Shown here: piece by piece, positions 18,001 to 40,461 of the stretch
Layout: every line of letters starts with the position of its first letter
Numbering within the stretch: position 1 is the first letter of the stretch
Assembly: GCF_032362555.1 (NCBI RefSeq)
Contig: NC_083514.1
Location: forward strand, 6,061,001-6,125,000
From: Amyelois transitella
Lineage: Eukaryota; Arthropoda; Insecta; Lepidoptera; Pyralidae
Reading direction: 5' to 3'
DNA: 64,000 nucleotides
Notes under the pieces: generated by a model
Database searches by the model: none
Told to the model about the DNA's origin: nothing
What the model saw: only the letters and a program-made list of their open reading frames with translations
Position numbers and translations under genes: made by a program

Positions 18001-18951
18001 GAAAAATCGCATCGAGCAAGAATCTCTTTGTATATAAGGAATTGTCAAATTGCAGTCATGTATTCGTTCGCAATGACACCGTAAGAAGCCCGTTAACAGC
18101 GCCATATGACGGCCCATACAAAGTGATTGAGCGACACAGCAAACATTTTAAGATTGAATTGCCTCTACGAGCATCCAACATATCCATAGATCGACTCAAA
18201 CCGGCGCACATAATCAATCTAGACGACAACATAGCAGCGAACGCGCAACAGAGCCATCCCCACTCTTCGGAACCCGCACCCGCGGCAAACACAGGTCCGC
18301 GCGCGCCGTCGGTTCACACACCGAGTGCGCCAAAACCACGCATTGTCATGAACAAGCCAAGAACACAGGAGACATTAACTAATTCGAAGACATCAAGATA
18401 TGGAAGAAAAATCAAACCTAGTGTACGCTTCGCTTGAAGGGGGATAATGTGGAGTTCACATACAAGTACCACAGAGATTACTACGCGTCGCGACGCCGCG
18501 CTCTGTGCTGCGTGCCCCCCACCACCGCGCGAGTTACACTGTGACGCGTATTAGGTGTGAAATTAATTAATATTGTATAAAATCATTCTCATTACACATC
18601 TTTCTACTGGTATTTCATTTTGAGTAGTCCAAGCTCACAACACACTAATTGTAATACCAGACATACTTGTTATTATATAAGATTTTTTTCCAGCGGCTGT
18701 ATCGGCTGGTTTAGTGCTGAATTTGTCACGACGAACTCCATCTCGATCATACAACATCACTACTCGTTCGCAAGTTGCGACTGCAAGTTTCACATTGTTC
18801 GGAGACCAGCTAATATCAGCTACCGGACTTTCACAACCCTGTAAATTAATTTATATAAATAATCGATATTTTCAGGTCAAAATCGACATCCACACATTAC
18901 AATGCTACTTTCCTGGGCTTCTATAAACGTTTTAGAATATTTCAACCTCAT
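95..18951 (-). CDS. IFT172: IFT172, intraflagellar transport protein 172 (3' end beyond the window)
   Basis: Subunit of the IFT-B complex that carries cargo along ciliary axonemes. Twenty-five exons join in phase into 1187 codons that align end to end with vertebrate IFT172: N-terminal WD40 blades (for example KKVICNKF in exon 3) followed by TPR-like repeats. The last quarter or so lies beyond base 1. Exons 5' to 3': 18901-18951 (ATG), 18667-18838, 13402-13594, 12379-12565, 11938-12072, 11243-11430, 10442-10581, 10235-10311, 8454-8570, 7839-7977, 7331-7461, 7055-7143, 6736-6866, 5597-5724, 4961-5066, 4494-4715, 3914-4098, 3421-3537, 2929-3099, 2632-2700, 2177-2422, 1600-1741, 1165-1265, 580-686, 95-311. 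All junctions are GT-AG except the exon 19 donor, which appears to be GC. Intron 2 (18666 down to 13595) holds a whole LTR retrotransposon. Insects use IFT mainly in ciliated sensory neurons. Family assignment is near certain; single splice sites may be off by a few bases. Confidence 0.95.
2822..2895 (-). pseudogene. Decayed partial copy of IFT172 exon 19
   Basis: This intronic stretch resembles the 5' half of exon 19 at about 2998-3085. They share, in order, the blocks around GCCCGC.TGCCGCG, CTCACTAGCCA/CTCACCAGCCA and GACAAGTCACT/GGCGGGTCACTT, with scattered substitutions. It lies about 35 nt downstream of the exon in gene direction and has no usable acceptor or donor of its own. Read as a fossil local duplication. 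Confidence 0.7.
3836..3908 (-). pseudogene. Decayed partial copy of IFT172 exon 17
   Basis: The intron immediately after exon 17 opens with a second copy of the start of that same exon. The minus-strand blocks CGAAGGTCG, GGGTGAAGCCGG and CGGCCCTAG recur a few bases past the donor at 3913, with drift and a large internal gap. Reading through the donor hits a stop after about a dozen codons. This is a local duplicate, not an extra exon. Confidence 0.75.
5974..6838 (-). repeat. 160-bp tandem array built from IFT172 exon 13
   Basis: Four complete units, identical as far as I can read, repeat with a period of exactly 160 bp downstream of the genuine exon 13 (6736-6866). A fifth, truncated and diverged copy lies at about 5974-6037. 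Each unit holds the last 102 nt of exon 13 with its GTATAT donor (exon-like blocks 6576-6677, 6416-6517, 6256-6357, 6096-6197) plus 58 nt of intron. The 58-nt spacer ends in CCAAG. If that is used as an acceptor, every block is a phase 1 to phase 1 cassette of 34 codons that would splice in frame. The spacer has a weak pyrimidine tract, so use of the blocks is unproven. Confidence 0.93.
8696..9709. mobile_element. Non-autonomous DNA transposon with CAGGGTGAC terminal inverted repeats
   Basis: The left end reads TACAGGGTGACATTTAAAAC and the right end is its near-perfect inverse, extending to an ACAACTGCAT/CAACTGCAT match, so the TIRs are about 27 bp. Both ends are bounded by TA, as in Tc1/mariner-like elements. 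No transposase frame is visible. A second inverted-repeat element is nested inside at 9109-9662. Confidence 0.75.
9109..9662. mobile_element. Nested foldback/MITE element with arms of about 165 bp
   Basis: Left arm about 9109-9275 and right arm about 9492-9662 are inverted copies with only a few mismatches. Both start GAGCTAGTGAACCCTCC and carry GGCAGGCATCTGCCCTGCAC. The central 216 bases are AT-rich and non-coding. Any transcript of this intron could fold into a long near-perfect hairpin. Family not identified. Confidence 0.8.
9712..9830 (-). pseudogene. Decayed partial copy of IFT172 exon 9 and its upstream intron
   Basis: Bases from about 9714 repeat exon 9 (8466-8570) with the middle deleted: CTCGTACTCAA.CACG, then CC.GACCACG.AAT, then the flanking ATGTCATTAC with GGTCAC. 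Further upstream intron similarity (AATGTTGGCACT against AATGTCAGCACT) continues to about 9830. The copy begins exactly at the edge of a TIR transposon (8696-9709), which therefore sits between exon 9 and its duplicate. Confidence 0.72.
10640..10835 (+). repeat. Dispersed short repeat, family A (about 190 bp)
   Basis: Hallmarks are GACTAAGGGATAGGCTTATA, TTCTTTTAGACGATGGGCTA, a TGAATGTGGCC block and GGGTTCTGCCTACCCCGC. Related copies on the plus strand: 8095-8310, 29880-29985, 40005-40085, 59435-59640. On the minus strand: 13205-13325, 25840-25975, 37270-37385, 43750-43865, 53895-53995, 56395-56525. At least 11 copies of different ages mark it as a common interspersed repeat of this genome. 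No coding content. Confidence 0.8.
12905..13190 (+). repeat. tRNA-derived SINE
   Basis: A Pol III B box (GGTTCGAATCC) at about 12988 is preceded by a diverged A-box region and followed by a non-tRNA body (AGTCATGTGC, GGTGAGGGAACA, GGAAACCTGAACATTC). It does not fold into a full cloverleaf, so it is a SINE head, not a tRNA gene. It lies in IFT172 intron 3. Confidence 0.7.
14153..14347 (+). repeat. 5' LTR
   Basis: 195 bp, TGTGG...AACA, preceded by target-site copy CACT. Base-for-base the same as the 3' LTR by eye. It contains a GC-rich first half and a TATTGTATAAAATC stretch that could act as core promoter. Confidence 0.95.
14349..14366 (+). other. Primer binding site, tRNA-Trp type
   Basis: TGGTGACCCCGA starts two or three bases after the 5' LTR. 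It is complementary to CCA plus the last nine bases of insect tRNA-Trp (TCGGGGTCA-CCA). This primer choice is typical of the CsRn1/Kabuki clade. Confidence 0.8.
14392..15249 (+). CDS. gag: Retrotransposon Gag
   Basis: 285-residue structural protein of the LTR element. The N-terminal two thirds look like a retrotransposon capsid domain (conserved WF and QF positions near the start, then an alpha-helical region). The C-terminal part is basic, rich in Arg and Ser, and ends in a CHCC zinc-binding motif, CSYHYRFGDRARKC followed by a further Cys, the variant known from CsRn1/Kabuki elements in place of the usual CCHC knuckle. The frame is open without defects. Its last 40 bases overlap pol, which lies in the -1 frame. 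Annotated as a transposon protein, not a host gene. Confidence 0.93.
   Translation: MERKEEYTDASASPEAVAREVSTISLQSRIPSFWRAQPKLWFAQFEAVVSSYKTSEDQKYNLVIAVLERTDIEQVSDIICNPPSAGKYQALKKRLLSVYEESESKQFQKLLGGLELGEQKPSQLLRVMRDLSGTKVADDALKVLWMGHLPSQVRAVLSVSTESSLDTMATMADKMMEHTEQTVAEIRQDATPGSSSGAQNNLQFQVLSKQIEKLTLEIAALKEDRSRFRGRQPFRNPRRNKSSTRSKSRNGRKPGDPEWECSYHYRFGDRARKCQSPCARRRSEN
15210..18437 (+). CDS. pol: Retrotransposon Pol polyprotein (protease, RT, RNase H, integrase)
   Basis: 1075-residue polyprotein, open throughout. Domains in order: aspartic protease with DTGAD at about residue 45; reverse transcriptase with the FIDDLL active-site variant at about 340; RNase H with TDASDCSLGAVL at about 490; integrase with an HHCC zinc finger (QHELSH ... 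CIGC), then catalytic D, D and E in HTDIIGPLP, TDQGRQFES and ANGKVERFHR. Pol is in the -1 frame relative to gag. An in-frame stop at 15198-15200 means a frameshift must occur within 15201-15249, or translation restarts at the ATG at 15210. No envelope frame follows. All catalytic residues I can check are present, so the element could still be mobile. Confidence 0.94.
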   Translation: MPVTLRSTTVGKLEATSTVAGVGVIKGSNRLCIRELNTKERFLVDTGADISVLAARNRKQTPSNTYKLYAANNTPIRTYGEKTIDLNIGLRRTYRWTFIVADVQTSILGADFLRNHKLLVDLHQKKLIDSVTDLKIEVIETTSDQPSVYIIDKNHIYQDILKKYPDVLRPMSLREPTKHSVTHHIETTGPPLFARPRPLPPDKYKAAKMEFEKMMEMGICQPSKSPWASPLHVVTKKNGSLRVCGDYRRLNAVTVPDRYPIPRIQDFTYRLHNKKIFTKLDLKMAYYWIPIKDEDKAKTAIITPFGLFEFNCMTFGLRNSSQTFQRFMHEVLRGLDDIVYSFIDDLLIFSNTPDDHKKHIEQVLERLSKYGVSLNIEKCEFGRNKIEFLGYQVSVEGITPTDERTRAISNYPKPNTVQDLRRFLGMVNFYRDCLPHQAEHQYELNKYLHNAKKNDKTPIIWTIEAETAFDTCRQSILEATTLSHPMPGAPLSLMTDASDCSLGAVLQQKEKDAWKPLAFFSKAMSETQRRYSVYDRELLAMYTAVKHLRRLIEGSEITIYTDHKPLVNALTRPPSSSDTPRRERQLHYISQFCTKIKFIHGERNQAADAMSRIEEIELLTWIDYEKLSQEQRKDVTLQDLRKHPKLTFADKIFAGVTQPITCETSTGKNRLYLPKAFRYAAFKAQHELSHPGIRTSRRIMTSKYFWPSINKDVGTWAKSCIGCQRAKIHRHVVSPWGEFSPARRFEHIHTDIIGPLPISQGYRYLVTIIDRNTNWMEAIPVKEITANIVAQAVYEGWISRFGCPIRITTDQGRQFESSLFNALMKKCGIRRIRTTAYHPQANGKVERFHRTLKAALMARDAISKWKEDLPTVLLGLRTALRDDNTSPALMTYGSTLRVPFDFFVPTKSKNEDAEFIRQFTETMSTFTPVQRKIASSKNLFVYKELSNCSHVFVRNDTVRSPLTAPYDGPYKVIERHSKHFKIELPLRASNISIDRLKPAHIINLDDNIAANAQQSHPHSSEPAPAANTGPRAPSVHTPSAPKPRIVMNKPRTQETLTNSKTSRYGRKIKPSVRFA
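18436..18447 (+). other. Polypurine tract
   Basis: GAAGGGGGATAA abuts the 3' LTR and overlaps the pol stop codon. It is the expected plus-strand priming site. Confidence 0.8.
18448..18642 (+). repeat. 3' LTR
   Basis: 195 bp, follows the polypurine tract directly and is followed by target-site copy CACT. No difference from the 5' LTR seen. Confidence 0.95.
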
Positions 18952-19626
18952 CTTCAACTTTTACTTTTATAGTATCTTTTGAGATTAAACAACGGATCAA
19001 AAGTTTCCTACATCTTGTACAGGAGCTTGTACAAACAGATTGGCATCTCCGTTTTTTTTACCCTATTTATTTGGTTGTTGGTTGCTAAGTAACACACATG
19101 ACAAACAAAATCCTTTTTAAAACTGCCGCCGCTTTTGCAAACGAGAGCCTATTGACCAAAAAGCTCGGATCGCCAAAGGAGCTTTTTTCAGTAACTATAT
19201 ACATAAACATAAAATCACGCCTCTTTCCCGGAGGGGTAGGCAGAGACTATATCTTTCCACTTGCCACGATCTCTGCATACTTTCTTCCCTAACTAAAAAT
19301 AACTATATCTTTTACAGCTCAAAATACAGCCAAGCAGGTGACAGACACGCGGTTATAATTCGTTCTGCAGTCGGTCACACACGAGGAGTTCGCGCGCACG
19401 TTGAGAAGGCTTATGACCTATCATTATTTTCATTATATTATTTCGAATAACCGACAAACTTAAAAATAAAACTTGAAGGAATAACCAAAAAGAAAAAACA
19501 AAAGAAAAGTCTTAGCTTCGTGAATAGATCTCTTGATCCAAAGACAATAATATATATATTTTTTTTTATGGTCGTGTTGGCGACACTCACTTTATGTCAA
19601 AAACTGACATCGATGCATTTAAAGTT
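18952..19626. promoter_or_regulatory. Shared upstream region of IFT172 (minus) and RpL14 (plus)
   Basis: About 675 bases between the IFT172 start codon and the probable RpL14 cap site. It contains a fragment of repeat family B (about 19205-19290, ATCACGCCTCTTTCCCGGAG). No TATA box is recognised with confidence. The arrangement suggests a bidirectional promoter region, possibly with IFT172 5' UTR exons inside. Confidence 0.4.
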
Positions 19627-19673
19627 CTTTCATTCTTTTCGTGTTTAATTTTTATGTGTCAGGACGTTAAGAG
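19627..19673 (+). other. Probable RpL14 5' UTR exon with TOP motif
   Basis: CTTTCATTCTTTTCG is a pyrimidine-rich cap-site sequence (terminal oligopyrimidine) typical of ribosomal protein genes. A donor (GAG|GTTAGC) ends the exon at 19673 and joins an acceptor at 19925. The exact donor is uncertain because this version leaves an ATG in the leader. Confidence 0.5.
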
Positions 19674-19931
19674 GTTAGCATTTGAAAAATCTATTTGAAT
19701 CCTTGCAAAAGACGTGTATTTTAAATTTTTATATCATGCGTTGTTTCTTCCTGTTATAGTTCGATTATTTCCATACATTATTTTTATATATTTTCAAATT
19801 ACAGTGTCGGTTCGCGTGACAAATTTAACCCCTATGTTTTTTGTACATTGGATTGTTTACACTAGTAAAACATATACAGAATTACACGTAACAGGTAATT
19901 ATTTTTTAAATATATTTTATTACAGAACGTC

Positions 19932-20432
19932 ATGCCTTTCGCGCGATTCGTAGAACCAGGGCGGGTCGCCCTGGTAGCCGATGGTCCTTTGAAGGGAAAA
20001 TTGGTCAGCGTGGTCGACGTCATTGATCAGACCCGAGCTCTTGTGGATGGACCCGGTAGCGGTGTGTCCAGACAACAAATCCGCCTAAACCAGCTTCACC
20101 TCACAAAGTTCCGCCTCAAGTTCCCCTTCACAGCTCCGACACGGATCGTCAGGAAAGCGTGGACAGAGGCCAAACTGAATGAGAAATGGACAGAAAGCCA
20201 ATGGTCACAGAAACTGGCTAACAAAGAAAAACGGGCACAGATGACAGATTATGACAGGTTCAAACTAACATCAGCGCGTGTAAAGAGGAACCGTGCTAGG
20301 ACTGCGGTATTCAAGAGTCTGAAGGTGAAAGCGGCGCGTGCTGGCACTTTTGGCAAGAAGAAAATCCCCAAAACTCCAGCAAAGAAGCCACGTACTAAGA
20401 AACCTGCGGCAAAGAAACCAGCAAAGAAGTAA
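19932..20432 (+). CDS. RpL14: Ribosomal protein L14 (eL14)
   Basis: 166-residue large-subunit ribosomal protein. The N-terminal half is the KOW/SH3-like domain (FVEPGRVALVADGPLKGKL). The middle is the eL14 domain ending in TDYDRFKL and a basic RVKRNRAR helix. The tail is a Lys/Pro/Ala-rich extension (repeats of KKPAKK type), as in other insect L14 proteins. The whole coding sequence is in one exon. The acceptor at 19925 sits six bases before the ATG, so the leader is spliced. An AATAAA lies at 20476. A strong splice donor follows only about 70 bases later and belongs to the snoRNA host transcript, so the two units are almost contiguous. Confidence 0.97.
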   Translation: MPFARFVEPGRVALVADGPLKGKLVSVVDVIDQTRALVDGPGSGVSRQQIRLNQLHLTKFRLKFPFTAPTRIVRKAWTEAKLNEKWTESQWSQKLANKEKRAQMTDYDRFKLTSARVKRNRARTAVFKSLKVKAARAGTFGKKKIPKTPAKKPRTKKPAAKKPAKK

Positions 20433-20475
20433 TTCTTTTATCTGAAAGTTAAAAAAGTGACAAAAAACTATGCTA

Positions 20476-20481
20476 AATAAA
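20476..20481 (+). terminator. RpL14 polyadenylation signal
   Basis: AATAAA 44 bases after the stop codon. The next donor-like sequence, AACAAG|GTGAGT, is at 20552/20553. Confidence 0.75.
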
Positions 20482-20741
20482 GAATTACTTTAAGCCATGT
20501 TCTGTGTTATTGGTATTCCTAAAATACTGTCAAATATGATTAATGAAACAAGGTGAGTTTATTAAGTTTTATAGAACACATCACATTTGTTTTTTTACTC
20601 AATTTATTTTCTTTTTCAGTGTGCAGACCAAATGATCATCTTGCAACCTGTAGAAGGCGAGTATTTTGTTAAAATAAATGACATATAATTTACTATCTCC
20701 ATATTCACATAATAATCTATATAACGATTGCAAAATATTAT

Positions 20742-20815
20742 ATTGCATGATGAATTAATATATAGTCTCGTTCGTATGATCTAATGATTTAAAGATTACC
20801 GCTTTACTGATAAAC
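20742..20815 (+). ncRNA. SNORD30: Box C/D snoRNA, U30-like copy 1
   Basis: C box ATGATGA at 20747, D box CTGA at 20807, 72 nt before the 3' splice site. Guide AGTCTCGTTCGT at 20764-20775 is a 12-nt complement of the conserved 18S stretch ACGAACGAGACT. Human U30 carries the same CTCGTTCG element for 18S A1383. The D' box is degenerate (ATGA), but its spacing keeps the same target A. Confidence 0.85.
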
Positions 20816-21028
20816 TTAAATAATTTAACTTCAATCAATTGTTTCATTATATTATTATTTATGATTCTTTTACTCTTTGCAGATAACATACATAACTTTC
20901 CACATTACAATTCTCCAGGTGAGCAAAATTATTTTAATAAGTCTTATATTTTGAATTATCAATAATTTTTAAACAAAAATTGTTAAATTTATCTATGGGC
21001 ACTTGGGCACCTATCCAATTAACATTAT

Positions 21029-21359
21029 GGTTTCGGCTCCACTGAGGCGGAGAGGAGCAGACCTGTTTCAAGAGATACGTGACTCCACTGAGGCGGAGCT
21101 GAGCTGAGCCCTTGATTGTTGATTTCTACCATGTCACTTCACCAGTCGTCTCCGCTTGACTGTTTCCATTGAAGCAAAGCCGAGACGAGATGTGGATTTC
21201 ATGTAATATGATTGGTAGTTCCTCACAAGTCTCTGCTCCGCTCGTCTCCGTTTGACTGTTTCCATTGAAGCGGTGCGGAGACAAGATGTGGATTTCACGT
21301 AATATGATTGGTCAATCCCCACACGTCTGCTCTCCCTCCGCCTCAGTGCAGCCGCACCC
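21029..21359. mobile_element. MITE with TIRs of about 34 bp
   Basis: The ends GGTTTCGGCTCCACTGAGGC and, inverted, GGGTGCGGCTGCACTGAGGC match over about 34 bases. The interior contains a duplicated motif (TGACTGTTTCCATTGAAGC at about 21163 and 21255). No coding frame. It lies in the intron that carries the first H/ACA RNA. Confidence 0.7.
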
Positions 21360-21361
21360 TA

Positions 21362-21570
21362 TTAATATGCATATGAAAATGAAAAATATTTTATTTGGAA
21401 ACAAAAACAAGTACAATTTAAGTAACATAGGATAACGATGACATCTGCAGAAGTTATGAACTGTGTGTGAAAACTTGTTTGTATTGGTGTAGGTATAGAG
21501 AGGAAGTATGTAAGGCTGTATTGCGATTTGAAACGTCTACGAGGATATTTAATCATGGGAATATTTAACG
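21362..21570 (+). repeat. Dispersed repeat, copy 1 of 2
   Basis: AAATATTTTATTTGGAAACA, then GTACAATTTAAGTAACATAG and TTTAATCATGGGAAT, recur in the same order at about 45165-45475. Non-coding, family unknown. Confidence 0.75.
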
Positions 21571-21611
21571 TAATATGGGTTTACACATGGGAATTACTAT
21601 TCACTAGATTC

Positions 21612-21741
21612 TATACCCTACCAAAGCCGATGTGTGAACAGCTTTATCTGTCATATGTGACTCTGGTTAGGAACATCATCACACTCTGTGTAAGAGAAGT
21701 GTTTACTATAGCTATTTCTCTAAGGGTTGAGTGCGACAAAC
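21612..21741 (+). ncRNA. Box H/ACA snoRNA copy 1
   Basis: Two hairpins with a hinge and an ACA tail. Hairpin 1 is closed by CCTACCA with TGGTTAGG. The H box is ACATCA at about 21673. Hairpin 2 is closed by CACTC/GAGTG and inner AGAGAA/TTCTCT, leaving an internal loop TGTGTA opposite AAGGGTT that fits a pseudouridylation pocket. ACA at 21736-21738, three bases from the predicted end. Target not identified. Confidence 0.72.
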
Positions 21742-22032
21742 ATCTATAGTTTTTTTTAATTTCACATATATAGTAAACTGTTACAATAGGTACTTATAAG
21801 AATAATAAGAAACTTACAAGAAAGAAAGGGAATTAGAGATTTTGTTATATAGGTATTCAACACCAGTTGCAAATATATTTTTTTTTTTTCAGAAACTTAT
21901 ATTGACGTGATGGGAGGTGAAATTGCAAGACCCTCTTGTTTATGGACAATAAAAGACCAACACTCCACTTCCACTTTTTATGAGAAGTAAGTTTCAAGCA
22001 ATTAAGTATTTTTAAGGCATGTAATTTTTTAT

Positions 22033-22113
22033 TTATTATGATGAATGATGAATATTAAATAGTCTCGTTCGGATGATCTCTTTGATTTCAACATTACCGC
22101 TTTACTGATAATT
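22033..22113 (+). ncRNA. SNORD30: Box C/D snoRNA, U30-like copy 2
   Basis: C box ATGATGA at 22038, guide AGTCTCGTTCGG at 22061-22072, D box CTGA at 22105, 73 nt before the 3' splice site. It shares the guide and the downstream ATTACCGCTTTACTGATAA with copy 1, so the two arose by duplication. Confidence 0.85.
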
Positions 22114-22264
22114 TCAAAACATATATGTGTAATATTTTATATTTAATTGGTTTATTAATTTTATGTTTTTCTAATCCTTAGGGGTCCCACAAATTGCAGC
22201 TTAAAATATATGCCTAGGATTTCAGAAAATGGTATGTCATAAAGGATTTTTACTAATTATCCAT

Positions 22265-24900
22265 ACATATAATAAAACTGTAACTCAACTTTGTCTGTAC
22301 ATTGAAGATATTTAAGAAAAAATATTATAAGGGGTCTTTTTAGGGTCAATAGAAGCCAAAACAATTTTTTTTAGAATTTTTGTCTGTCTGTCTGTCCGTC
22401 TGTCTGTCTGTATGTTTGTACGCGCATCACGCAAAATCTACCGAACGGATCTGAACGAAATTCGGCACAGATATAGTTAGTAACCTGGATTAGAATATAG
22501 GCTACTTTTTATCCTGAAATTCTATCCCAAGGGGATGAAATAGGGGGTGCAAGTTTGTATGGGACTTCGTCATTTTTGAATCGATATAAAAAGCTATAAA
22601 TAATTAATTATCATATTTATTATGATTAAAAAAATAGCATTTTATTGATTAAATTCATTATGCTTTGTTTATTTATTTAGTTCCCGTGGTTTAGATATTT
22701 ATTTTTTGCCCACCCGATACGAGATGGCGCCTCATGAGAATTTAAGAAATAACACAATTGTAGCCGCTGGCAAAATTTTTTATTAATTATATAATTAAAA
22801 CTTCTTTTATTCATTGATTTAGTTTCGTTTTCCAGCACTTACCGTTTCACCACATCTTTGAGAAGAATTTTTTTTTATGTAGGTAGTTTGACGCGCCCCG
22901 CATCGGCGACGGTTGCCATGCTCCTCAAGATTAGCAGAAATAACACACATGTAGTAACGCCAGTACTTACCATTTCACCATTGATTTAGTTCCCGTGGTT
23001 TAGATATTTATTTTTTGACCATCCGATACGAGATGGCGCCACGAGAATTTAAGAAATAACGCGATTGTAGCCGCTGGCAAAATTAGATAGTACCGATGCT
23101 TGCAGCATCGGTACTTATTCGGTAGAGTTTCTTAATTCACTGTCGGCATCTGGACTGCCCGCGCATACAATTGCACTAAAAGTAGACATTCCATTTTGTA
23201 AGGAGACTGCCTTAAAGTTGAGATTGAGAGAAGAGAGAAATTGTTTTTATACCGCGCATTCCCCTCATTCCCAACAACTTTCCATTTCAATTTAAGCGTG
23301 TACAGTTTCCAATGGCTATATGTTTCGCGATGACAATTAACAAATCACAAGGTCAAACACTTGGGGCAGCCGGAGTCGACCTCAGGACGATTTTGCTTCT
23401 CACACGGACAGCTCTACGTCGCTTGCTCGCGGGTCACCAGCTGTGACAGTTAATTTGTGATGTCTCCAATGGGCAAGATAGCAAATGTTGTAAACAAAGA
23501 GATAGGTACTTTAACTTTCCATTATTATAATTTCCTTTTTTTTGTCTTTAGAATTTATTCGTTTTTTAACAGCTGCGCTTCCGAGCTTTGCTTTTGTAAG
23601 AAAAATAAACTAAGTTCTATTCCAGGCATTATTCTTCCCGTGTACGTAAGTTTCATCAAAATCCATCCAATAGAATTTGCGTGATTAAATAGCATCCTCA
23701 AACAAGCACTCACGTAGGTACATCAATTTTTTTGCATAATCTATACTAATATTATAAAGATGAAGAGTTTGTTTGTTTGAACGCGCTAATCTTAGGAACT
23801 ACTGATACGAAAAGAAAAATTATTTTTGCGTTGAATAGACCATTTATTGAGGAAGGCTTTAGGCTACATTAGCTGTGCCCGCGACTTCGTCCGCGTGGAA
23901 TAGTTATTTTGGGCATCATATTTAGTTTTGCAAACATCCTCCTCGGCTTTATCAATTATAGCTGCTAATTATTATGCGACTTGGCGACGACTTGGCCCAC
24001 ATCATTACCCGCGACCAAACGGAGACCGTATATATGCGTTTAGGGTGAGAGGTTGTGCGTTTGTTTGTGCAAACCAATGTTAGCATATATCTCCAAAACT
24101 ACTGGTCCGATTTTAATAAATAAAAGGTCAGGCGGTCACGCGTATTAGAAAGAACGCTGGTTCGCCGTATTAAATGTTTCGCTGCAAATTGCTTATAACG
24201 ACTATATCTCAAAACCTATTCGTCTGATTTATATACTGTAAATGGCAATTTTAGTCTACATGAAAAGCCGAAAGTAATAAACATATTTATTTGGATAAGG
24301 ATTAATACTGAATTAAAGAAAATTGGTTTCAAAATAACTCATGTTTATAATGAAAAAATAATCTTAAAAAATGAACATAAAAGTGGTTATTGTAAGTAAA
24401 CCTTAAGAGATAGATATATGCTCTCGCGGACTTTTTTGTGGCAAAAAATGAGTACTTCACATCTTTAGTACATTGTTTTACTATATGTTTGTTGGTTTGC
24501 GCAGCGTTCGCGTGGAAAGCTCGCAGATGGCCGACTCATTCAACTTTCACCTGCATTGTTGACGTTTCCCGTAGGAAATCCGGGATTAAATGTAGCCTAT
24601 AGCCTTCCTCGATAAATAGACTATCTAACAGTGAAAGAATTATTCAAATCGGTTCAGTAGTTTCTGAGATTAGCGCGTTTAAACAAACAAACAAACAAAC
24701 AAATAAACAAACAAAACAAACTCTTCAGCTTTATAATATAAGTATAGATAACATCACGCTGCAACTTTAACGGGAAATGAAAAATGGACTATGTGCAAAA
24801 AAAACGGGGAAAATTATTCATCCTTGAGGGCTTCAATGATGCTCAAAATAACAATTCCACGCGGACGAAGTCGCGGGCACAGCTAGTTGATAAATGAAAT
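22265..24900. repeat. Transposon-rich stretch within a snoRNA host intron
   Basis: A cluster of old interspersed repeats. It holds a (GTCT)n microsatellite at about 22381-22413 and two diverged copies of a block with GATACGAGATGGCGCC at about 22660-22790 and 22985-23090. Two oppositely oriented copies of the repeat ending CGCGACTTCGTCCGCGTGG lie at about 23745-23915 and 24510-24890. A Helitron helicase fragment is annotated separately. Nothing else is recognised. Confidence 0.7.
23240..23456 (+). pseudogene. Helitron RepHel fragment (Pif1-type helicase C-terminus)
   Basis: Translation shows the helicase end typical of Helitrons: PFQFKRVQFPMAICFAMTIN, then KSQGQTL, and after a one-base frameshift CFSHGQLYVACSRV. 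Only about 70 codons survive, with no start, no Rep domain and a broken frame, so it is a dead fragment of a rolling-circle transposon. Confidence 0.85.
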
Positions 24901-25034
24901 AAAAAATCATCATTGGGAATGCTAATAATAGTTTAACACATGATTATGATTTTTTAATTTGTGCAGAGCTACCAAAATATTACAGTGAATATTGGTTTTT
25001 GTGAAATCTTTCAATCATAATTTCTTTATATTTG

Positions 25035-25163
25035 CACACCCTACCAAAGCCGATGTGTGCACATCCCCAAATGGCATGCGTGACTCTGGTTAGGAACATA
25101 AACACAATCTGTGTAGGAGGTATTGTTTTATAGCTATACCACCAAGGGATGATTGTGACAAAT
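25035..25163 (+). ncRNA. Box H/ACA snoRNA copy 2
   Basis: Paralogue of the RNA at 21612: same CCCTACCAAAGCCGATGTGTG start (first 20 bases agree), same GTGACTCTGGTTAGGAACAT. H box ACATAA. The second stem is closed by CACAATC/GATTGTG with compensatory changes relative to copy 1, and GGTAT/ATACC inside. The pocket strands TGTGTA and AAGG are kept. ACA at 25158-25160. Confidence 0.72.
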
Positions 25164-25576
25164 ATTGTTATTCATTAACAAGCTGAAAAAGCTGTGTTAA
25201 TTCAAAGAAAATAATATTGTGTTTAATTACAGATTTACTGCCAGAAAAGTGGACCCCCATCTGAAGATAAACTGCTAGGAAACATAAGGTATGTAATTTT
25301 CTTTTAATTAACAACAATGTGGTGTTGTTAATTTAAGGTTTTTTATGTATTTTAAAAAAAATTTAATCAAATAAAACATATTTTTTTAACTAAATCTAAT
25401 AAAGATGAATGTCTGGTTCAGACCATGCTTCATAGCCCTGATGTACCTTTTTTATTAACTATAATCTGTACTTATTATTTTGTAATAATAATAAATAAAA
25501 ATAATATCTTTCTAATAAACTTAGCTAGCATCAATTGCTATTGTGTTATGCCTTTGAGAATAGTTTAATAAGAATA

Positions 25577-25640
25577 ATAACATGATGACTATTTGTATCG
25601 CCCCTATCTGATGTCTGATGATTGATCGTCACTGAATTTA
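25577..25640 (+). ncRNA. SNORD31: Box C/D snoRNA, U31-like copy 1
   Basis: C box ATGATGA at 25582, guide TATCGCCCCTAT at 25596-25607 directly before D' CTGA, C' TGATGAT, D box CTGA at 25632, 69 nt before the 3' splice site. The D'+5 position is the C that faces the LSU G methylated through human U31 (28S G4166), but bases +2 and +3 differ from the U31 guide CCGCCCCAGT. Confidence 0.8.
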
Positions 25641-25989
25641 GTAACAGAATAACTTATTGTATGTATTAAATTAATTAGAAATTAATTATAGAATTATTTT
25701 TCAGAAATTTATGAAAATGGATCACTGTAGTAAATATCTACTCATGTAGTTGGAGCTTACAATATCAGCCTTAAAAATAAGTTCCTGTAAGTTCAATTTT
25801 GTATTACTATGATACTATACTATACATATAATCATGTCTGTATCCTTATGGAGTAACAGAGCCAACAGTTTGGAAAAGACTGAAATTTCATGTTCAGCTG
25901 TATGGTGTAATAATGGAACAAGATTTCAAATAGTGAAAGGTTTCTACCCATCGCCTAAAAGAAGAATCCCACTTAGGTACTTAAATCAT

Positions 25990-26053
25990 TTTTAATGATG
26001 ACGTTTTGTATCGCCCCTATCTGAAATACTGATGATTGATCTTACTGAAATTT
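25990..26053 (+). ncRNA. SNORD31: Box C/D snoRNA, U31-like copy 2
   Basis: C box at 25995, guide TATCGCCCCTAT at 26009-26020, D' CTGA, C' TGATGAT, D box CTGA at 26045, 75 nt before the 3' splice site. Guide identical to copy 1. Confidence 0.8.
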
Positions 26054-26355
26054 TACCATGTTTAGGTAATTCGTTTTTGTTTTTCTGTCGAAATTTGTAT
26101 AGCATTTGTTTCTTTATTTTTAGGTGTTGTGAAGAATAAGAAAACAAGATTATTATACAACTTAAAGTTTTGGACATAACCTATCAAATACTGAATGTGT
26201 AACATAAAAAAAAAAACTGGTTCAATATGCCTCACAACTGGGTGAGTTATATATCCTTACGAAACGAAAGTCATGATCTGGGGACTTTCCGCAGAAGAAT
26301 CAGTGTTGGCCCATGATCCTGAAGAAATTAATATTTAATTGCCATAAACTATATG

Positions 26356-26418
26356 CTTCAATGATGATTCTATATCGCCCCAGTCTGAAATCTAATGTTG
26401 ATTGATCTTCTGATTATT
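26356..26418 (+). ncRNA. SNORD31: Box C/D snoRNA, U31-like copy 3 with the canonical guide
   Basis: C box ATGATGA at 26361, guide TATCGCCCCAGT at 26373-26384 before D' CTGA, D box CTGA at 26410, 78 nt before the 3' splice site. Unlike copies 1 and 2 it keeps the CGCCCCAGTCTGA core of vertebrate U31, which pairs with the ACTGGGGCGG motif of 28S rRNA. Confidence 0.87.
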
Positions 26419-26574
26419 GAATAACATCTTTTTTACATACATACATATTTAAGATAAAATTTATTTCATCGATTTATTTTTTACTTTTCAGAATCATTGA
26501 ATCGACTGTATAGCTGACATTCTTAAACAGGTATTCTTGCAGTTTTTGAGAATTCATAATGTAGCTTATATTTA

Positions 26575-26640
26575 TACAAATGATGTTTTTACAAGCATAT
26601 ATCATAATTTACTTTGATGTAAAATCTTAACTGATATTAT
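26575..26640 (+). ncRNA. SNORD27: Box C/D snoRNA, U27-like copy 1 (weaker)
   Basis: C box variant ATGATGT at 26580, guide TACAAGCATAT at 26590-26600, D box CTGA at 26631, 70 nt before the 3' splice site. The guide complements the 18S 5' motif ATATGCTTGT. The D' box is degenerate, so this copy may be decaying. Confidence 0.68.
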
Positions 26641-26837
26641 ACTATATTACTGTTTTATAAAATTACAAATTTTCATCAATAAAACTATATTATTTTCTCA
26701 ACAGGCATGACGAGAGACAAACAAGAATATATAAAACGAAAGAAAGACGTATGAAATTAACATCATGATAAGAAAAGTGTAAGTTACTAATTGTTTCATT
26801 CAAAGATTGACATATTTTGTTGGTGTTACACATATTT

Positions 26838-26917
26838 TAATAATGATGATAAAGATTAGTTATCCCTGTCTCACAAAACCATGGGGAAAAATATGGTATG
26901 GTAACAACTGAGTAAAA
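26838..26917 (+). ncRNA. Box C/D snoRNA facing the LSU peptidyl-transferase loop, copy 1
   Basis: C box ATGATGA at 26843, D box CTGA at 26908, 75 nt before the 3' splice site. AGTTATCCCTGT at 26858-26869 is a 12-nt complement of the universally conserved LSU sequence ACAGGGATAACT. If CTCA just after it serves as D', the +5 rule selects the second G of GGG, the position of yeast Gm2815, guided by snR38. The target is inference. Confidence 0.75.
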
Positions 26918-27185
26918 ACAACAAAAAAAACAAACAAAGAAAATTATGTAATCAAATTTAAATTAATGACATACTATTTGTTTCAGAAGAGGAAGAAATG
27001 TTTGTACTGTTGTGAGCTTATGACAACATCAAGGTATGTTAAAGTTGTAATTGTAATTTGCATTCTTCATTCTGGTAAAGGCTCACCATAGCAGAGAAGC
27101 TGGAGTTCTTTTATTTTTAGAGAGTTAGAGATGTTTAGATAGAGTTTAAATAAATATAATTTTATAAAATGAGAATTCTCAAGAA

Positions 27186-27262
27186 AAATTATGATGAATT
27201 ACTAAGTTATCCCTGTCTCACAAAATCGTGGGGAAACTATGGTATGGTAACAACTGATGACA
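27186..27262 (+). ncRNA. Box C/D snoRNA facing the LSU peptidyl-transferase loop, copy 2
   Basis: C box ATGATGA at 27191, same 12-nt guide AGTTATCCCTGT at 27205-27216, D box CTGA at 27254, 76 nt before the 3' splice site. The 3' part GGTATGGTAACAACTGA is shared with copy 1. Confidence 0.75.
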
Positions 27263-27439
27263 TAAGAAGCATTTAATTGTTTTTTTATATACCTAAACAA
27301 TTTGTAATAAATAAATACTTTTTTTTTTCACAGTTAAGCAAGTATCTTTGATGTTTGGTCTACCTAGTTTGAAAAGCACAGAAAATATACCTCGACACAC
27401 CCAACATTTTGGCCAATTGTAAGTATGCATACTTTTAAA

Positions 27440-27680
27440 TTATTTGTTGTTCATTGCTGTCTCCAGCAACTACGACTGAAACACGAACATCAAACATTGG
27501 CTATGACACTTCTACATCGAATCTTCATGACTGAGGGTCGTGACCGCCTTAATCTTCTCATGAAGGCAACTCGGTCTTGCACCTACTCCATAGCTTTCTG
27601 GAGGTTAGTGTGCGTGACCAACCTCCAGAATGTTTGGCTGTTAGAAAACAAAAAAGCAGTGTTGTAGGAGGGTCTCCTAC
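27440..27680 (+). repeat. Uncharacterised repeat-like stretch upstream of U27-like copy 2
   Basis: Contains an open frame of 80 codons that I do not believe is a gene. Motifs such as ATGACTGAGGGTCGTGACC and CGGTCTTGCACCTACTCCAT resemble a dispersed insect repeat. Identity uncertain. Confidence 0.35.
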
Positions 27681-27757
27681 TAGCTTTAGTGAAATTACAT
27701 ATATGTACATAAAAACTAAAATAATAATAGAGAAATAAAATTACCAATAGCAATGTT

Positions 27758-27831
27758 TACTAATGATGATCATATTTAAGACAAGCATATATCTGAATCA
27801 TTTTTGAAAGATGCACATTTATCTGATTTCT
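27758..27831 (+). ncRNA. SNORD27: Box C/D snoRNA, U27-like copy 2
   Basis: C box ATGATGA at 27763, guide AGACAAGCATAT ending at 27790, D' CTGA at 27793, D box CTGA at 27823, 72 nt before the 3' splice site. It matches the GACAAGCATAT element of vertebrate U27, which methylates 18S A27, with the same +5 target. Confidence 0.87.
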
Positions 27832-28065
27832 TTGTTTTTAATGTGTTGATAAAGATGGTTTATAAAGAACGAAACTAATAAAAACATTTAATTTTCAGGT
27901 ACAGGTGGCGCCAGAACATTAACCTGGAATCTACCACTTAAATTATACAAAACAAACTCATTCATATAAATATTTATCAACAGAAATAAAGTAAAAAATT
28001 TAATTTACACATTGTTTATCATTTCTAACCACTTCCCTTTTAGATAGTGACGGCATATAAAATGC

Positions 28066-29281
28066 ATGTATCGCATAATGTATTCGCTTCCATTCATTAG
28101 GTCAATACGATGCGTTACATTTTGGTCACTCAGTTGGAAACCACTGGAGCCACATCATGCAAGCTTCAGGTGTGTGCTTACTTATAGTCTATTCTTAGGT
28201 AATAAATCTTGCATAGGTCCTACTACCTACGTCTTTTTGTTGAAAAAACAAAATAAAGTACCTATTAGTACAGTAACTCATTATTTAATCTGTAACCTAC
28301 TTCCAGTTTTGTTATAAATTAATTTATGAATGTATTTCTCAATAAAAAGCGGTATCAATATTTTTTACTTTAGTTCAGTACCTACACAAGGAAATAGACA
28401 CCTGTTAATTGCTTGCGGCATGTTTTTCAGACACTGGCCTGTTCTCAAGTTTCTCAATTTAACCGTCATCGGTTCTTGTATTAGAGTTCTAGCTGAACTA
28501 AATTTTTCATAACTACTTGTTTGCGCGATTTTTAAAAAATGCCTCTGTATTGATATTTCAATTTATCATAAATAGTACATCTCATCTCTCCTTTCTAGGG
28601 TATTACAGAGACTGATCAAAATAATTTGGAACAACGTCTTACCAACAGCGAGATTGTATTTATCAAACAACCAAATTTTATTGAAATAGACTGTCAAGGG
28701 GTGAAAGTGTTAAATATTTTAGCAGGAACGCAGTTTAAGTAAGTACCCATTATAGTACCTATAAAGAATCACTCACTGTACATCCTTTTAAGGATGATCC
28801 GTACCAAAAAGGTAAAAACGGGACCCTATTACAAGTTTAATCATTTCATCTTAACCACCACCAGATTAAATGCTCACTACGAAAATCTGACGAATAAAAC
28901 TCCATATTACGGCACCGATTTTAACACTTGTCCCAACATGGCACATCTCAATGGGACTGGGATAAACCGAATTTTACTCAGACAGAGAATTTTTACAGAC
29001 CATTTTTTGCCCTTGTTACTACCAATCCTACCATACATAGCAGTAGAAATACATACCTTTTATCACCCTTCATCGTTCAGCTAAGGTGCACGTGATGTTT
29101 TTTTTTAATTCACACGTGAGGGAATCCCGGCTTTATTGACCTTTACAATGACAAGCTTTCTTATTTAGTCTGTCTCAGTTACAGAGTTATTGGACAATCT
29201 ATGATTGTGGAATCATCAAAAATAGGTGGAAGAACCGTACAAGTACAGCACACCACATGGACTCTTATGAAAGAAAATTAG
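28066..29281 (+). CDS. Small unrecognised protein, possibly mitochondrial (about 132 residues)
   Basis: Predicted exons 28066-28169, 28431-28485, 28599-28738 and 29179-29281 join in phase and end in TAG, with AATAAA at 29291. The last two exons are the best supported: clean GT-AG sites and a beta-strand-like C-terminus (VIGQSMIVESSKIGGRTVQV then HTTWTLMKEN). The first exon encodes a basic, hydroxyl- and aromatic-rich start (MYRIMYSLPFIRSIR) that could be a mitochondrial targeting peptide. The second exon is short and less certain. I do not recognise the family. It lies 50-100 bases after the snoRNA host gene on the same strand and ends near the 3' end of SPAG6. Confidence 0.5.
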
Positions 29282-29345: not shown

Positions 29346-32300
29346 TTATTTTCCATTTTCTATAGTTAACTCGCTTTGACAATCACTGGGCACCCTGTCT
29401 GTAAATAACTCCGGTATCTGAAATTAATAATAATACTTAATCAATCCTTAATTAGAAAAATGCAAGTTTTTAAGGATTCGTGTCTTAATAACTCTTTCAC
29501 GCGATTTTTATGAAACTTTACAGTAATATTATACTACAGCTTAAACATTTGAATAACATACTAAGTTAAAATTTACTTATAGATCCTACTACTATTATAA
29601 AGGCGAAAGTTTGTATGGATGTTTGTTACTCTTTCACGCAAAAACTACTGAACCGATTACCATGAAATTTGGTATGTAGGTAGCTGAAAACCCAGAATAA
29701 CACATAGGCTACTTTTTATCCCAGAGTTCCCGCGGGATTGATAGGGTTTCCATGCGGACGAAGTCGCGGGCGGCCTCTAGTTTTTTATAATTTTCTACAA
29801 CTAGTCATATAAAAGGGTTATGTTACTGTCTGACAGACAACATATGTACGTATACCTAGAAGAAATTATTGCAGCATATTAATTTGAATCTCAATTCCAT
29901 CATCATTAAGCTGCACGTGGCCATTTACTCTTTTCAAGACTGATGGCTCTGTCTACCCCGCAAGGGGTATGGACTATGACTATAAAATAGTAAGTACACA
30001 CAGCTCAGGATATACCTGGGCCACCTCCCATACACCAATCAAAGCGAGGTGGCACATCTATCTCTTGAGCCCCCCCTACTTTTGCAAGAATTTGATTATT
30101 ATAGTAAGTATAGGACTTACTTGCGGGGTATAAGCCTCTACTCTATCCAGCAGCGAATCCGAGTACCCAGGGGTGTAATACCTTAAGTAAAATTTACAAT
30201 CCATTATTAAGTTACAGTTCACTTTGCGATAGACTATCGCATGCATGTTACTCTTTCAAGACCAAACAGCTGCACCGATTTTAATAAAATTTGGTATGCA
30301 CATCGACTCAATAACAGGGGCTACTTTTTCAAAAATCAGCCTCAATGACCTTAAATGGGGGTTAATCAGAAACAACAAGGAAATCAAGGTCAAGCCGCTG
30401 GACCAATTTTGATGAAATGACCAAACTATTTTACTTTTTGGATACCTTCGCTATCGCTGTTTCACTTTTTATTATGATGTGAATCGGAACAACGGTAATA
30501 TTACACGCGATAAAAACTGCGTCTAAGCCAAGATCAAAAAATCTGGTACCTAATTTATAAACGTACCGAACGATTTCTTCCGGAAAACAGCTGTTTATAA
30601 TATTTATGTATTCTTTTAACGACGTCCCTGGAACCGCATCTATTTCTTGCACTCTCTTCAAAGCACCCGTTGTAACGAATAACCTTCTGGCTCTAGCATC
30701 ATTAGGCAATATCTGCGAATAACGGAAGTATAATTATGTACTGCTTGACATTGAACGGAGGAGAGCAGCGACTCTGCTGCAGCTAGCGTCAAAGAGATAT
30801 ATAAAAGAATACCAGGGAGGCCGTATGCATGTGTGTAACTTAAAGTCAATTGTTTTTACACTTTAGCCTGTTGCCTGTGCATTGATTTATGTCATAATCA
30901 AATCAAATGTAATGTCATTGTCAGAAAGCACACAAATGACAGTTGGCATTGGCATGCCATGCATGTTGTTCGTTTGTTTTGTCTACAAGTTCGCCGCTCA
31001 GGATTATTGTTTTAAATGCAGTAAATTTGGGTAACTACTTTTTTTGTAATCTTATATATAATATTTATAATAATTCAATATGGCTGGACGTGGTCGAGGA
31101 AGAGGCGCGGGCTTATCATTCACACAAGAACAGCTGCAGGCGTTAGGAATTGGTCGAGGCGATAACCCTTCACCTATTTTAGCGCCTCCACCCTTATTTC
31201 CAAAACTTGAAGCTAAACCTCTGCCTCTATCATACGACGCAGCAACAGACTACATGTTGATTGTTAAGGACCAGTTCATTGAGTACTTGCATGAGTCGCC
31301 GGCTTACGTGAAGCCAAAGGCGGAAACAGACGGTGTTGAACGTTATTCAGATAAGTATAAACTTTTAGCTTTAAATGCTAAGCAGGGGAAAGTATTAGAT
31401 TGTGTGTGGAGTCATTTACCGGCAGAGCTAAGGCCGCAAACTGGTCGTGTCCGGGTGACGCGCAAACGAAAGTTAGATGATACAAAAGATATTGCCAAAA
31501 GGTTACAAACACTTGAAAGTAAAGAATTAATGGAAGAATCCAGTGAAGTTAATAAAAGAGCTGGAAATGAAGATGAAATAAAGAAAGAAAATGAGGATGA
31601 AAATGAAGAAATAGAAGATGAGGAAGAACAAGAATTTGAGTTAGATGATGGCACAGACTATGCAAATAACTACTTTGACAATGGAGAGGATTATGATGAA
31701 GAGGATGATAATTTAGATGATGGCCCTGTATATTAAAACTTTGCTGTCTATTATATAATATAGGATGTTATTAAGTTTATTGTTCCTGTTTTTGTTAATA
31801 AAATATATTGAGCAAGTTATTTGTTACTTTAAAAACAATCATACCTTAGCATACTGAGCTAGCACATATTTGAGAATGCAAGCAGGTGCAGCATGCAACA
31901 AAGGCTCCAGTGCTGGCCGGTGCAAGCAACACTGTAGAGATTGCTTCAATGCACAGGATGTTCGGGCACGCACCTCTCCCGAAGATTTTGGATTTGTATA
32001 CAACTGAATGTAAAAAAAATTTGTCACTTGTTGCAATCGCTAATGAAATTAAATTATTATTGCATTAACTTTTGTACATGAAAAGTCTTTTCTAATTTCC
32101 ATATGAATCTTTCAAGCTTTTGACTGTGGCACGGCTGTGGATTTTACATTTTCAGTCAGTCAGTGAGTATCATGTAGTCCAAACTACAAATCAACTTTTT
32201 TTGTATATTTGTAATCAATAACTTTCAAACTATTGTTCCGATTTTGATGAAATTTAAAAGGTAAGAGTTATAGTAGGTAGGTCGTTATATAGGTAGTTAA

Positions 32301-38920: not shown

Positions 38921-40461
38921 ATGCCTTATATCATGGTGATGGGCAGTCTGAGCGCTCCACATTTATCAAAGGATGAAGGCGCGACTGTTTACGGGCTCAA
39001 GAGCGAGGAACGTGCCACTTTAGTGCGGGTAATTTTTTTTGTTATAATCATAATTAAAAAAACAACAATGACGCGTGCATTCTATGCAGGTTAAAATTTT
39101 CCGTATTTGATCTTTGTTAGGTGCATCTAAAATCGAAACAATTAAACGTTGCCTTTTAAGTTATCAAACCTATGTCGGCATTATATGGGTAAAAGGCGTA
39201 TAACATTGGTAAAAAAAGTAGTTTCAACTATGGAAAGTCACGGCCCGTTGCTTAACATCCGTAAGGGTTGTGAACACGCTTCAAAAGGCCAGTTGTATAA
39301 CTCTTTGTAGAGAAGCGAGAGCCAATACTCCACTGAGGGACTAGACAAGAGGGTTCTAATGGAACGAGTACCAGAGTTAGACTAAAAAAACCAGGTGGCT
39401 TTTAAAAGGCCAGTCATACATACATACATACATAAAATCACGCCTCTTTCCCGGAGGGGTAGGCAGGGACTACCTCTTTCCACTTGCCACGATCGCTGCA
39501 TACTTCCTTTGCTTCATCCACATTCATAGCTCTCTTCATGCAAGCTCGGCGGTTTCGGGTACTTTTGACCTGAACCTTTACCAGTCATATTTTCTGATAA
39601 GTTTACCTATTTCATAAATCTTATTATCTTTCCAAAACTCTATAGCAATAAATGCAAAGAATGTTACCATCCCCTCAGCTGATGGCACTTCGTAGTGAAT
39701 ATCAGAATTTTAATTCATTATATACTTATTGAAAGTTTCTTATTCACTGTTATAGTACAGTATTCACAAAATTAGGCAGGTGTTTATCGTCGCTGTATAT
39801 ACTTAAGCGTAAAAGACCATGAATAAAAGGCGCCATACTCTTAATAAGAACAATTATTTGTCTCCACATTTTTATCTTTAAGTTTTGTAAACTTTGGTGT
39901 TTCTATAAAAGTCCCCTCTGTAAAAGTCGCAAAGAGTCTTAAATGTATAACACAGCCTAAAAAATCTTGAATAAAAGGCGCCATTAAGTAATCATTTTTT
40001 CTTCGGCCTATCAGTATTGAACCAAGACTGTTGGCTCTTTCTACCCCGTAAGGGATATATGTTCCTACTAGGATAGACGTGATTATATGTGTGCAGATAT
40101 TTTTCTTAGTTTTGTAATCTCTTATAATCAATCTCATCTCATTTTCCAGGAGCTAAACTCATCATTCGGGATGACAATCGCAGTCTCCAACGACCAAGAA
40201 CGCACCGTGCGGGTCACGCAAAAGGGCCTGACACTTGTCGTCGTCAACAGACTCCATGGCTTACTCGGCTACGACGTTGTTTCCCATTCTATGGCAATGA
40301 CGAACGCCAATAGAGAGCTGGTATCCTTCTCCATGTACAAGAAGTCGAGCCCGAGTAGTCACGGCCATGGCTCCAGTCATAGTCACAGTCACACGCATGG
40401 ACATAGTCACACGTCGCATAGCAAAGTGCATACGCACGGCGATGTGCTCACTACGCTTTAA
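38921..40461 (+). CDS. Orphan protein with His/Ser-rich C-terminal tail
   Basis: Two exons, 38921-39028 and 40150-40461, joined in phase 0 to 139 residues; AATAAA at about 40668. The first 105 residues form a compact, mostly beta-predicted region (SFGMTIAVSNDQERTVRVTQ, then KGLTLVVVNRLHGLLGYDVV) with no signal peptide or membrane segment. The last 35 residues are a low-complexity run of Ser, His, Gly and Thr with about a dozen histidines, spaced like a metal-binding HSH/HGH tail. I do not recognise the family and claim no function. Metal binding is only a suggestion from composition. Confidence 0.75.
39405..39560 (+). repeat. Dispersed repeat, family B
   Basis: A CATA microsatellite leads into AAATCACGCCTCTTTCCCGG, a block ending ACTTGCCACGATC and one ending CAAGCTCGGCGG. 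Further copies at 60665-60815 and, partial, at 19205-19290 and about 51205. In the intron of the His-rich gene; the rest of that intron is plain AT-rich sequence plus a family A copy. Confidence 0.8.

Follow-up and report, generated by a model that had tools for sequence, protein, structure and literature searches.

What kind of gene lies directly downstream of RpL14 in the moth Amyelois transitella, and where did its small nucleolar RNAs (snoRNAs) come from? We analysed a window of 64,000 nucleotides (nt) on contig NC_083514.1 (assembly GCF_032362555.1, positions 6,061,001 to 6,125,000, forward strand; coordinates below are those of the window). The locus at 20553-28005 very probably belongs to the UHG/SNHG type of snoRNA hosts, judging from its splice sites, boxes, box spacing, guide complementarity and a likeness between copies that ends at the snoRNA ends. 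We take the gene to be genuine and of an established kind, newly examined in a moth, and two of its evolutionary features are of interest.

Splice-site scoring followed by hand pairing predicted 12 introns and 13 exons between 20553 and 27898. Exactly one snoRNA was found in 11 of the 12 introns, nine of them box C/D and two H/ACA. This agrees with an earlier description made from the letters alone (the sequence-only reading), which had proposed 13 short exons and 11 intronic snoRNAs, at most one per intron. In 5' to 3' order, with distances measured from the end of the D box to the 3' splice site (3'SS), the features are as follows.

20553 to 20619, + strand: intron 1, without a snoRNA; splice-site scores 12.2 and 12.9
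20740 to 20817, + strand: U30a, C/D snoRNA with C and D boxes, in intron 20657-20882; 72 nt to 3'SS
21615 to 21743, + strand: H1a, H/ACA snoRNA, in intron 20919-21892; snoR639/H1 28.3 bits, gathering score 42
22038 to 22115, + strand: U30b, C/D snoRNA, in intron 21987-22181; 73 nt to 3'SS
25038 to 25165, + strand: H1b, H/ACA snoRNA, in intron 22232-25232; snoR639/H1 34.5 bits, gathering score 42
25575 to 25642, + strand: SnR60a, C/D snoRNA, in intron 25289-25704; 69 nt to 3'SS; SNORD31 28.3 bits, Gm1083 not among its listed matches
25988 to 26055, + strand: SnR60b, C/D snoRNA, in intron 25977-26123; 75 nt to 3'SS; RF00528 25.5 bits, SNORD31 27.2 bits
26354 to 26420, + strand: U31, C/D snoRNA, in intron 26242-26491; 78 nt to 3'SS; SNORD31 37.2 bits, gathering score 40
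26573 to 26641, + strand: U27a, C/D snoRNA, in intron 26531-26704; 70 nt to 3'SS
26836 to 26918, + strand: R38a, C/D snoRNA with D' box CTCA, in intron 26779-26986; 75 nt to 3'SS; snoR38 34.3 bits, gathering score 45
27184 to 27264, + strand: R38b, C/D snoRNA, in intron 27034-27333; 76 nt to 3'SS; snoR38 23.8 bits, gathering score 45
27756 to 27833, + strand: U27b, C/D snoRNA, in intron 27419-27898; 72 nt to 3'SS; SNORD27 26.4 bits, gathering score 52
27899 to 28005, + strand: last exon, with hand-paired acceptor 27898, an exonic AATAAA at 27985 and a putative 3' end at about 28005

The intron that carries U30a would be of the GC-AG type. The acceptor of a possible additional intron, 25787-25859, is weak and falls short of the scoring threshold; this intron holds no snoRNA, and the gene model works without it. 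The exons look non-coding, as claimed earlier: the longest open reading frame (ORF) in the spliced exons has 78 amino acids, and none of the three longest matches Pfam, no wider protein search having been made.

The sequence-only reading had placed all nine D boxes 69-78 nt before the 3'SS and considered this spacing hard to obtain by chance. The measured range was identical. A distance of about 70 nt to the acceptor is also given, in the part of the source cited, as the position of the DmSnR60 genes and as the vertebrate optimum (PMC1821038). We scanned the window for a C box and CTGA with an acceptor 60-85 nt downstream, by rules fixed after the candidates were known. The scan returned 10 C boxes on the + strand, every one inside the locus, and no match on the - strand or on the + strand outside the locus. 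They represent nine distinct RNAs, the C box of U30b being doubled; the acceptor taken for U27b was 27904 (78 nt). In 200 first-order Markov sequences of the locus the mean was 0.015 matches and the maximum one. Since the rules postdate the candidates, the absence of matches elsewhere in the window counts for more than the Markov figure.

We next consider the predicted targets, beginning with 18S ribosomal RNA (rRNA), for which pairing was scored on the moth's own 18S against 200 shuffled guides. The D' guide of U30a, which adjoins the U30 D' box ATGA (not CTGA), forms 12 of 12 Watson-Crick pairs at moth 18S A1395, the human 1383 site, and none of the shuffles was as good. U30b forms 11 pairs there (2/200 shuffles as good). 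Position 1383 of human 18S is an A. A mainly 28S A3804 role for U30 was rejected, as the 18S scores of the two copies were 21.0 and 19.5 against 18.0 and 16.5 on human 28S. The U30 label holds as regards the guide, which fits the 18S site better than A3804. The source cited lists U30, in SNHG1, for both 28S-A3804 and 18S-'C1383' (PMC6466398).

U27b forms 13 pairs to moth 18S A26, which corresponds to human A27, and U27a forms 11 pairs to the same site (0/200 shuffles as good for each). For U27a, if TCAT is taken as the D' box, the fifth position falls one nucleotide off. U27 is listed for 18S-A27 and as a resident of SNHG1 (PMC6466398). Within the U27b intron, the segment 27440-27700 is GC-richer and hairpin-rich; its fold z values of -1.03 and -1.79 are unexceptional, and Rfam gives no match there at E<=10 for a possible third structured RNA.

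The two H/ACA RNAs resemble snoH1 (snoR639) in sequence. Both have two hairpins and an ACA close to the 3' end, and their fold z values are -2.52 (0/200 shuffles as stable) and -1.94 (6/200). H1a and H1b differ in 27 of 130 columns, while 29 of the 37 consensus pairs are the same, three have changed on one side, five on both sides and none is broken. In both copies the pocket of the second hairpin fits moth 18S U1729, which is human U1692; for H1b, 5/300 shuffled pockets score as high. Drosophila snoH1 is described as guiding 18S U1820 (PMC1821038), a fly position whose equivalence to human U1692 was not aligned here. The 3-kb H1b intron is repeat-rich and includes inverted pairs of 104, 50 and 36 nt. 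An 84-nt repeat in the H1a intron (21377-21460) recurs with 98% identity at 45161-45244.

Several points weigh against this reading of the locus. At gathering scores, Rfam finds no snoRNA anywhere in the window, and all snoRNA matches lie below the cut-off. The D guides of U30, U31, U27 and SnR60 are no better than shuffles. The score of the U27a and U27b introns, 28 over their whole length, lies inside the range of unrelated intron pairs (see below), and their D' registers also differ. Lastly, the 28S pairings were scored with Rfam consensus guides and on a provisional human 28S sequence.

The Rfam search that the sequence-only reading had proposed as a check was informative below the cut-offs. 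At E up to 10, the region 20400-28100 gave 26 matches. Alongside others that are probably due to chance, these included SNORD31 in three places, snoR639/H1 and snoR38 in two each, SNORD27 and snoMe28S-Gm1083. As a snoRNA host in Lepidoptera, the locus offers named guides that escape the Rfam cut-offs. R38a and R38b form 14 and 12 pairs on human 28S, and 0/100 shuffles were as good for either. Theirs are also the sole D guides to beat shuffles (5-6/100 as good). The corresponding snR38 is listed for human Gm4362 (PMC3511168).

If the locus works as we infer, RNA polymerase II would produce a transcript reaching to about 28005, which would be spliced into exons that probably have no protein role. 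The introns would be debranched and trimmed to release eleven small nucleolar ribonucleoproteins. The nine C/D RNAs would direct 2'-O-methylation at the human 1383 and 27 sites of 18S and at the Drosophila G1083, human G4166 and human G4362 sites of 28S. The two H/ACA RNAs would direct pseudouridylation at the human U1692 site of 18S.

Where such a transcript would begin depends on its relation to the gene immediately upstream.

19932 to 20432, + strand: RpL14 (eL14) coding sequence, Pfam Ribosomal_L14e E 9.9e-28; possibly the upstream part of the same transcription unit

The RpL14 protein is 99% identical to a Plodia interpunctella cluster; among the best 120 of 130 matches, the next named clusters (81-91%) are from other moths and butterflies, followed by beetles. 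Its AATAAA lies at 20476, and the first donor of the host, 20553, lies about 75 nt downstream. We searched 19400-20600 for a TCT-like initiator. The sole perfect site is at 19635, upstream of RpL14, and sites with one mismatch are at 19627, 19747 and 20435.

There is about an even chance that the sequence-only reading was right to treat the snoRNA exons as a non-coding host gene in their own right, driven from a promoter located after the RpL14 stop codon and no further than 20552. The one-mismatch site at 20435 could serve it, and Drosophila Uhg and vertebrate SNHG genes are described as separate units (PMC4430873, PMC7277114). However, the first exon would then include the RpL14 poly(A) signal, and the space of about 120 nt has no perfect TCT-like site in a scan that covered TCT-like sites only.

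A prospect somewhat short of even is that the exons belong to RpL14 as an alternative extension at its 3' end, with one 5'-terminal oligopyrimidine (5'TOP) promoter near 19635 serving both. Cleavage past 20476 would then yield the RpL14 mRNA, while use of the donor at 20553 would yield an extended RNA that releases the snoRNAs. The short distance from the poly(A) signal to that donor and the position of the only perfect initiator, ahead of RpL14, are consistent with this. So are three published observations: known non-coding hosts are 5'TOP genes (PMC7277114), the snoRNA hosts named in Drosophila S2 cells include RpL14 (PMC13228274), and Drosophila mfl carries its SnR60 copies beyond alternative poly(A) sites, in introns that were once taken for a separate gene, dUhg6 (PMC1821038). 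On the other side, the site at 20435 lies directly past the RpL14 stop codon, and the joining of RpL14 to the exons is a prediction from sequence.

We next compared the snoRNA copies with one another. Paired copies align across the snoRNA body only, and the best local match ends at the snoRNA ends. Identical columns number 67/79 for U30, 103/130 for H1, 51/59 for SnR60a and SnR60b, 48/60 for SnR60b and U31, and 64/75 for R38. With the snoRNA bodies masked, the flanks of seven copy pairs scored 17-27; for comparison, 30 unrelated intron pairs (H1-bearing introns excluded) had a median of 22 and reached 40 at most. Two of the seven whole-intron scores did not exceed this maximum, namely SnR60a/U31 (39) and U27a/U27b. 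The earlier claim of duplication in place is supported, with the U27 pair scoring within the unrelated range. It is improbable that some copies, U27a and SnR60a, are decaying pseudo-snoRNAs and not working guides: U27a lacks a clear D' box and its register is shifted, and the D guide of SnR60a, which pairs worse than that of SnR60b, has three mismatches to the 28S A1092 site, but in both the C and D boxes are retained and the distance to the 3'SS stays within 69-78 nt, and SnR60a and SnR60b keep their likeness while their flanks score as unrelated.

The most informative copies are SnR60a, SnR60b and U31. When set against the complement of the Rfam guide, the D' guide of U31 forms 11 Watson-Crick pairs and one G-U pair, and it pairs 12 positions on human 28S (1/100 shuffles as good). 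This copy scores 37.2 bits with SNORD31 against 19.3 with Gm1083, and no other SNORD31 match reached E<=0.001 when the genome was searched. U31 is listed for 28S-G4166, in SNHG1 (PMC6466398). In SnR60a and SnR60b, CGCCCCTAT adjoins the D' box, as in Drosophila Gm1083 (RF00528), and, starting at the D' box, 10 contiguous pairs form with the 28S G1083 site (score 18.0; 4 and 9 of 100 shuffles as good); the perfect match in Drosophila is longer. Before its D box SnR60b reads GATTGATCTTACTGA, which matches the Rfam D-guide consensus of Drosophila SnR60 at 14/15 positions and pairs imperfectly at the 28S A1092 site. U31 reads GATTGATCTTCTGA ahead of its D box.

Two of the three copies that the sequence-only reading had called U31 carry the SnR60 guide for G1083. 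Guides of U30, U31 and U27 are all present together, as in SNHG1. The copies at 25575 and 25988 were rejected as plain U31, since TAT, not AGT, adjoins their D' box. The G1083 assignment has a competitor, as SnR60a and SnR60b also form 11 pairs at the U31 site, with a 3-nt gap to the box (score 19.0; 3 and 5/100 shuffles as good). As these guides fit both 28S sites, only their position relative to the D' box favours G1083. We had also considered whether the Drosophila G1083 site is human G1509, and dropped this, as they are different nucleotides when counted on the 28S sequence used here.

A pattern of TGATGA-N(4-18)-CGCCCCNNTCTGA had three exact matches in 327 Mb (33 contigs), all at this locus, and its reversed control had none in the same 327 Mb; the pattern misses copies with other boxes. 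Outside the guide, the D'-to-D segments of U31 and SnR60b match better than 1000/1000 shuffles, and the U31/SnR60a match is weaker (14/1000 as good). In the same 36-pair comparison, the unrelated pairs U30a/SnR60a, SnR60b/U27a and U31/U27a also reach 7-18/1000, so that only the SnR60b/U31 likeness stands well clear. In our reading, one ancestor gave rise by copying to both U31 and SnR60b, which now carry different guides, and their likeness outside the guide suggests a guide switch. Against the complement of the Rfam SNORD31 guide, SnR60a and SnR60b have two mismatches, at positions 2-3 from the box; retargeting would have taken two substitutions beside the D' box. The G1083 and G4166 rRNA sites share GGGGCG in the same register; considering that SnR60a and SnR60b still pair with the U31 site, an intermediate that fitted both sites is plausible. 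The direction of the switch is left unsettled by the Rfam bits, as SNORD31 outscores Gm1083 for both SnR60b and U31, and the opposite direction or gene conversion may apply instead. In-place snoRNA duplication, sometimes with a new guiding function, is described in chicken (PMC2653536), and guide elements are described as recombining in fungi (PMC2780460). The moth locus provides a concrete candidate for a C/D guide that changed its target by two substitutions after tandem duplication.

With vertebrate UHG/SNHG1 the locus shares one snoRNA per intron, non-coding exons and the U27, U30 and U31 guides (PMC6466398, PMC7277114). The vertebrate gene is C/D only, as the sequence-only reading had said, with U22 and U25-U31 as residents (PMC7277114). 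R38, SnR60 and H1 fall outside that set and are additions in the moth, where most guides are also doubled and a link to RpL14 is possible. Three of the six snoRNA families are common to both (P 0.0017 with a pool of 155, or 0.0040 with 5/93 C/D families; 0.036 without U31), the pools being chicken counts and the draw a crude model. These shared residents are what remains of the earlier claim that an ancient UHG survives in this insect: they suggest descent from an ancestral UHG without showing it, and U31 itself looks like an SnR60 copy. Drosophila hosts are reportedly related to UHG (Tycowski and Steitz, 2001). Intronic snoRNA addresses are reported to be unstable (PMC3511168). Drosophila Uhg genes are described as having as many as 16 introns, of which almost every one contains a single snoRNA, and no ORF is recognisable; with its 16 snoRNAs, Uhg1 has five exclusive target sites, so that its guides are duplicated as in the moth (PMC4430873).

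A further parallel is Drosophila mfl/Nop60B, the dyskerin gene. Its introns hold snoH1 and four tandem SnR60 copies, one per intron and about 70 nt from the 3'SS, in the part of the source cited (PMC1821038). A mixture of H/ACA and C/D residents is therefore no novelty of the moth lineage, contrary to the sequence-only reading. Unlike in Drosophila, the moth snoH1 and SnR60 follow RpL14, together with U27, U30, U31 and R38. The only dyskerin-domain match in the moth is one uninterrupted frame of 506 amino acids (contig C30 in our numbering; reverse complement 1821-3338 of the locus stretch), whereas the Drosophila gene is intron-rich (PMC1821038). Neither the C/D scan nor Rfam (E<=0.1) gave a match in the surrounding 9.9 kb, which include 1.8 kb before and 6.5 kb after the frame. 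Since the Rfam models score present copies weakly, the C/D scan and the genome-wide pattern weigh more in this negative. As fly and moth keep snoH1 and SnR60 in different hosts, host turnover could be dated across insects. We tentatively suggest, at rather less than an even chance, that in the moth line snoH1 and SnR60 were gathered with U27, U30 and U31 into one unit riding on RpL14, and that a duplicated SnR60 was retargeted from G1083 (fly numbering) to G4166 (human numbering), replacing an old U31.

Pattern scans for homologues in prokaryotic and viral collections gave three bacterial contigs in one case, which we take as chance, and nothing in the others. A search of the open-licence literature for lepidopteran snoRNA host genes was fruitless; we do not claim that the locus is unpublished. 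Upstream of RpL14, two adjacent ORFs at 14392-18437 (gag-like, and protease, reverse transcriptase, RNase H and integrase domains) represent a Ty3-type retrotransposon, and a 90-nt repeat at 19197-19286 recurs with 90% identity at 39420-39509. Nearby genes assigned by Pfam are an RNA polymerase III Rpc31 family member (31080-31736), a YAP/Alf4/glomulin family member (47636-49435) and a COQ9 N-terminal domain (49629-50096). The only Rfam match at gathering level in the window is a tRNA on the minus strand at 62237-62308.

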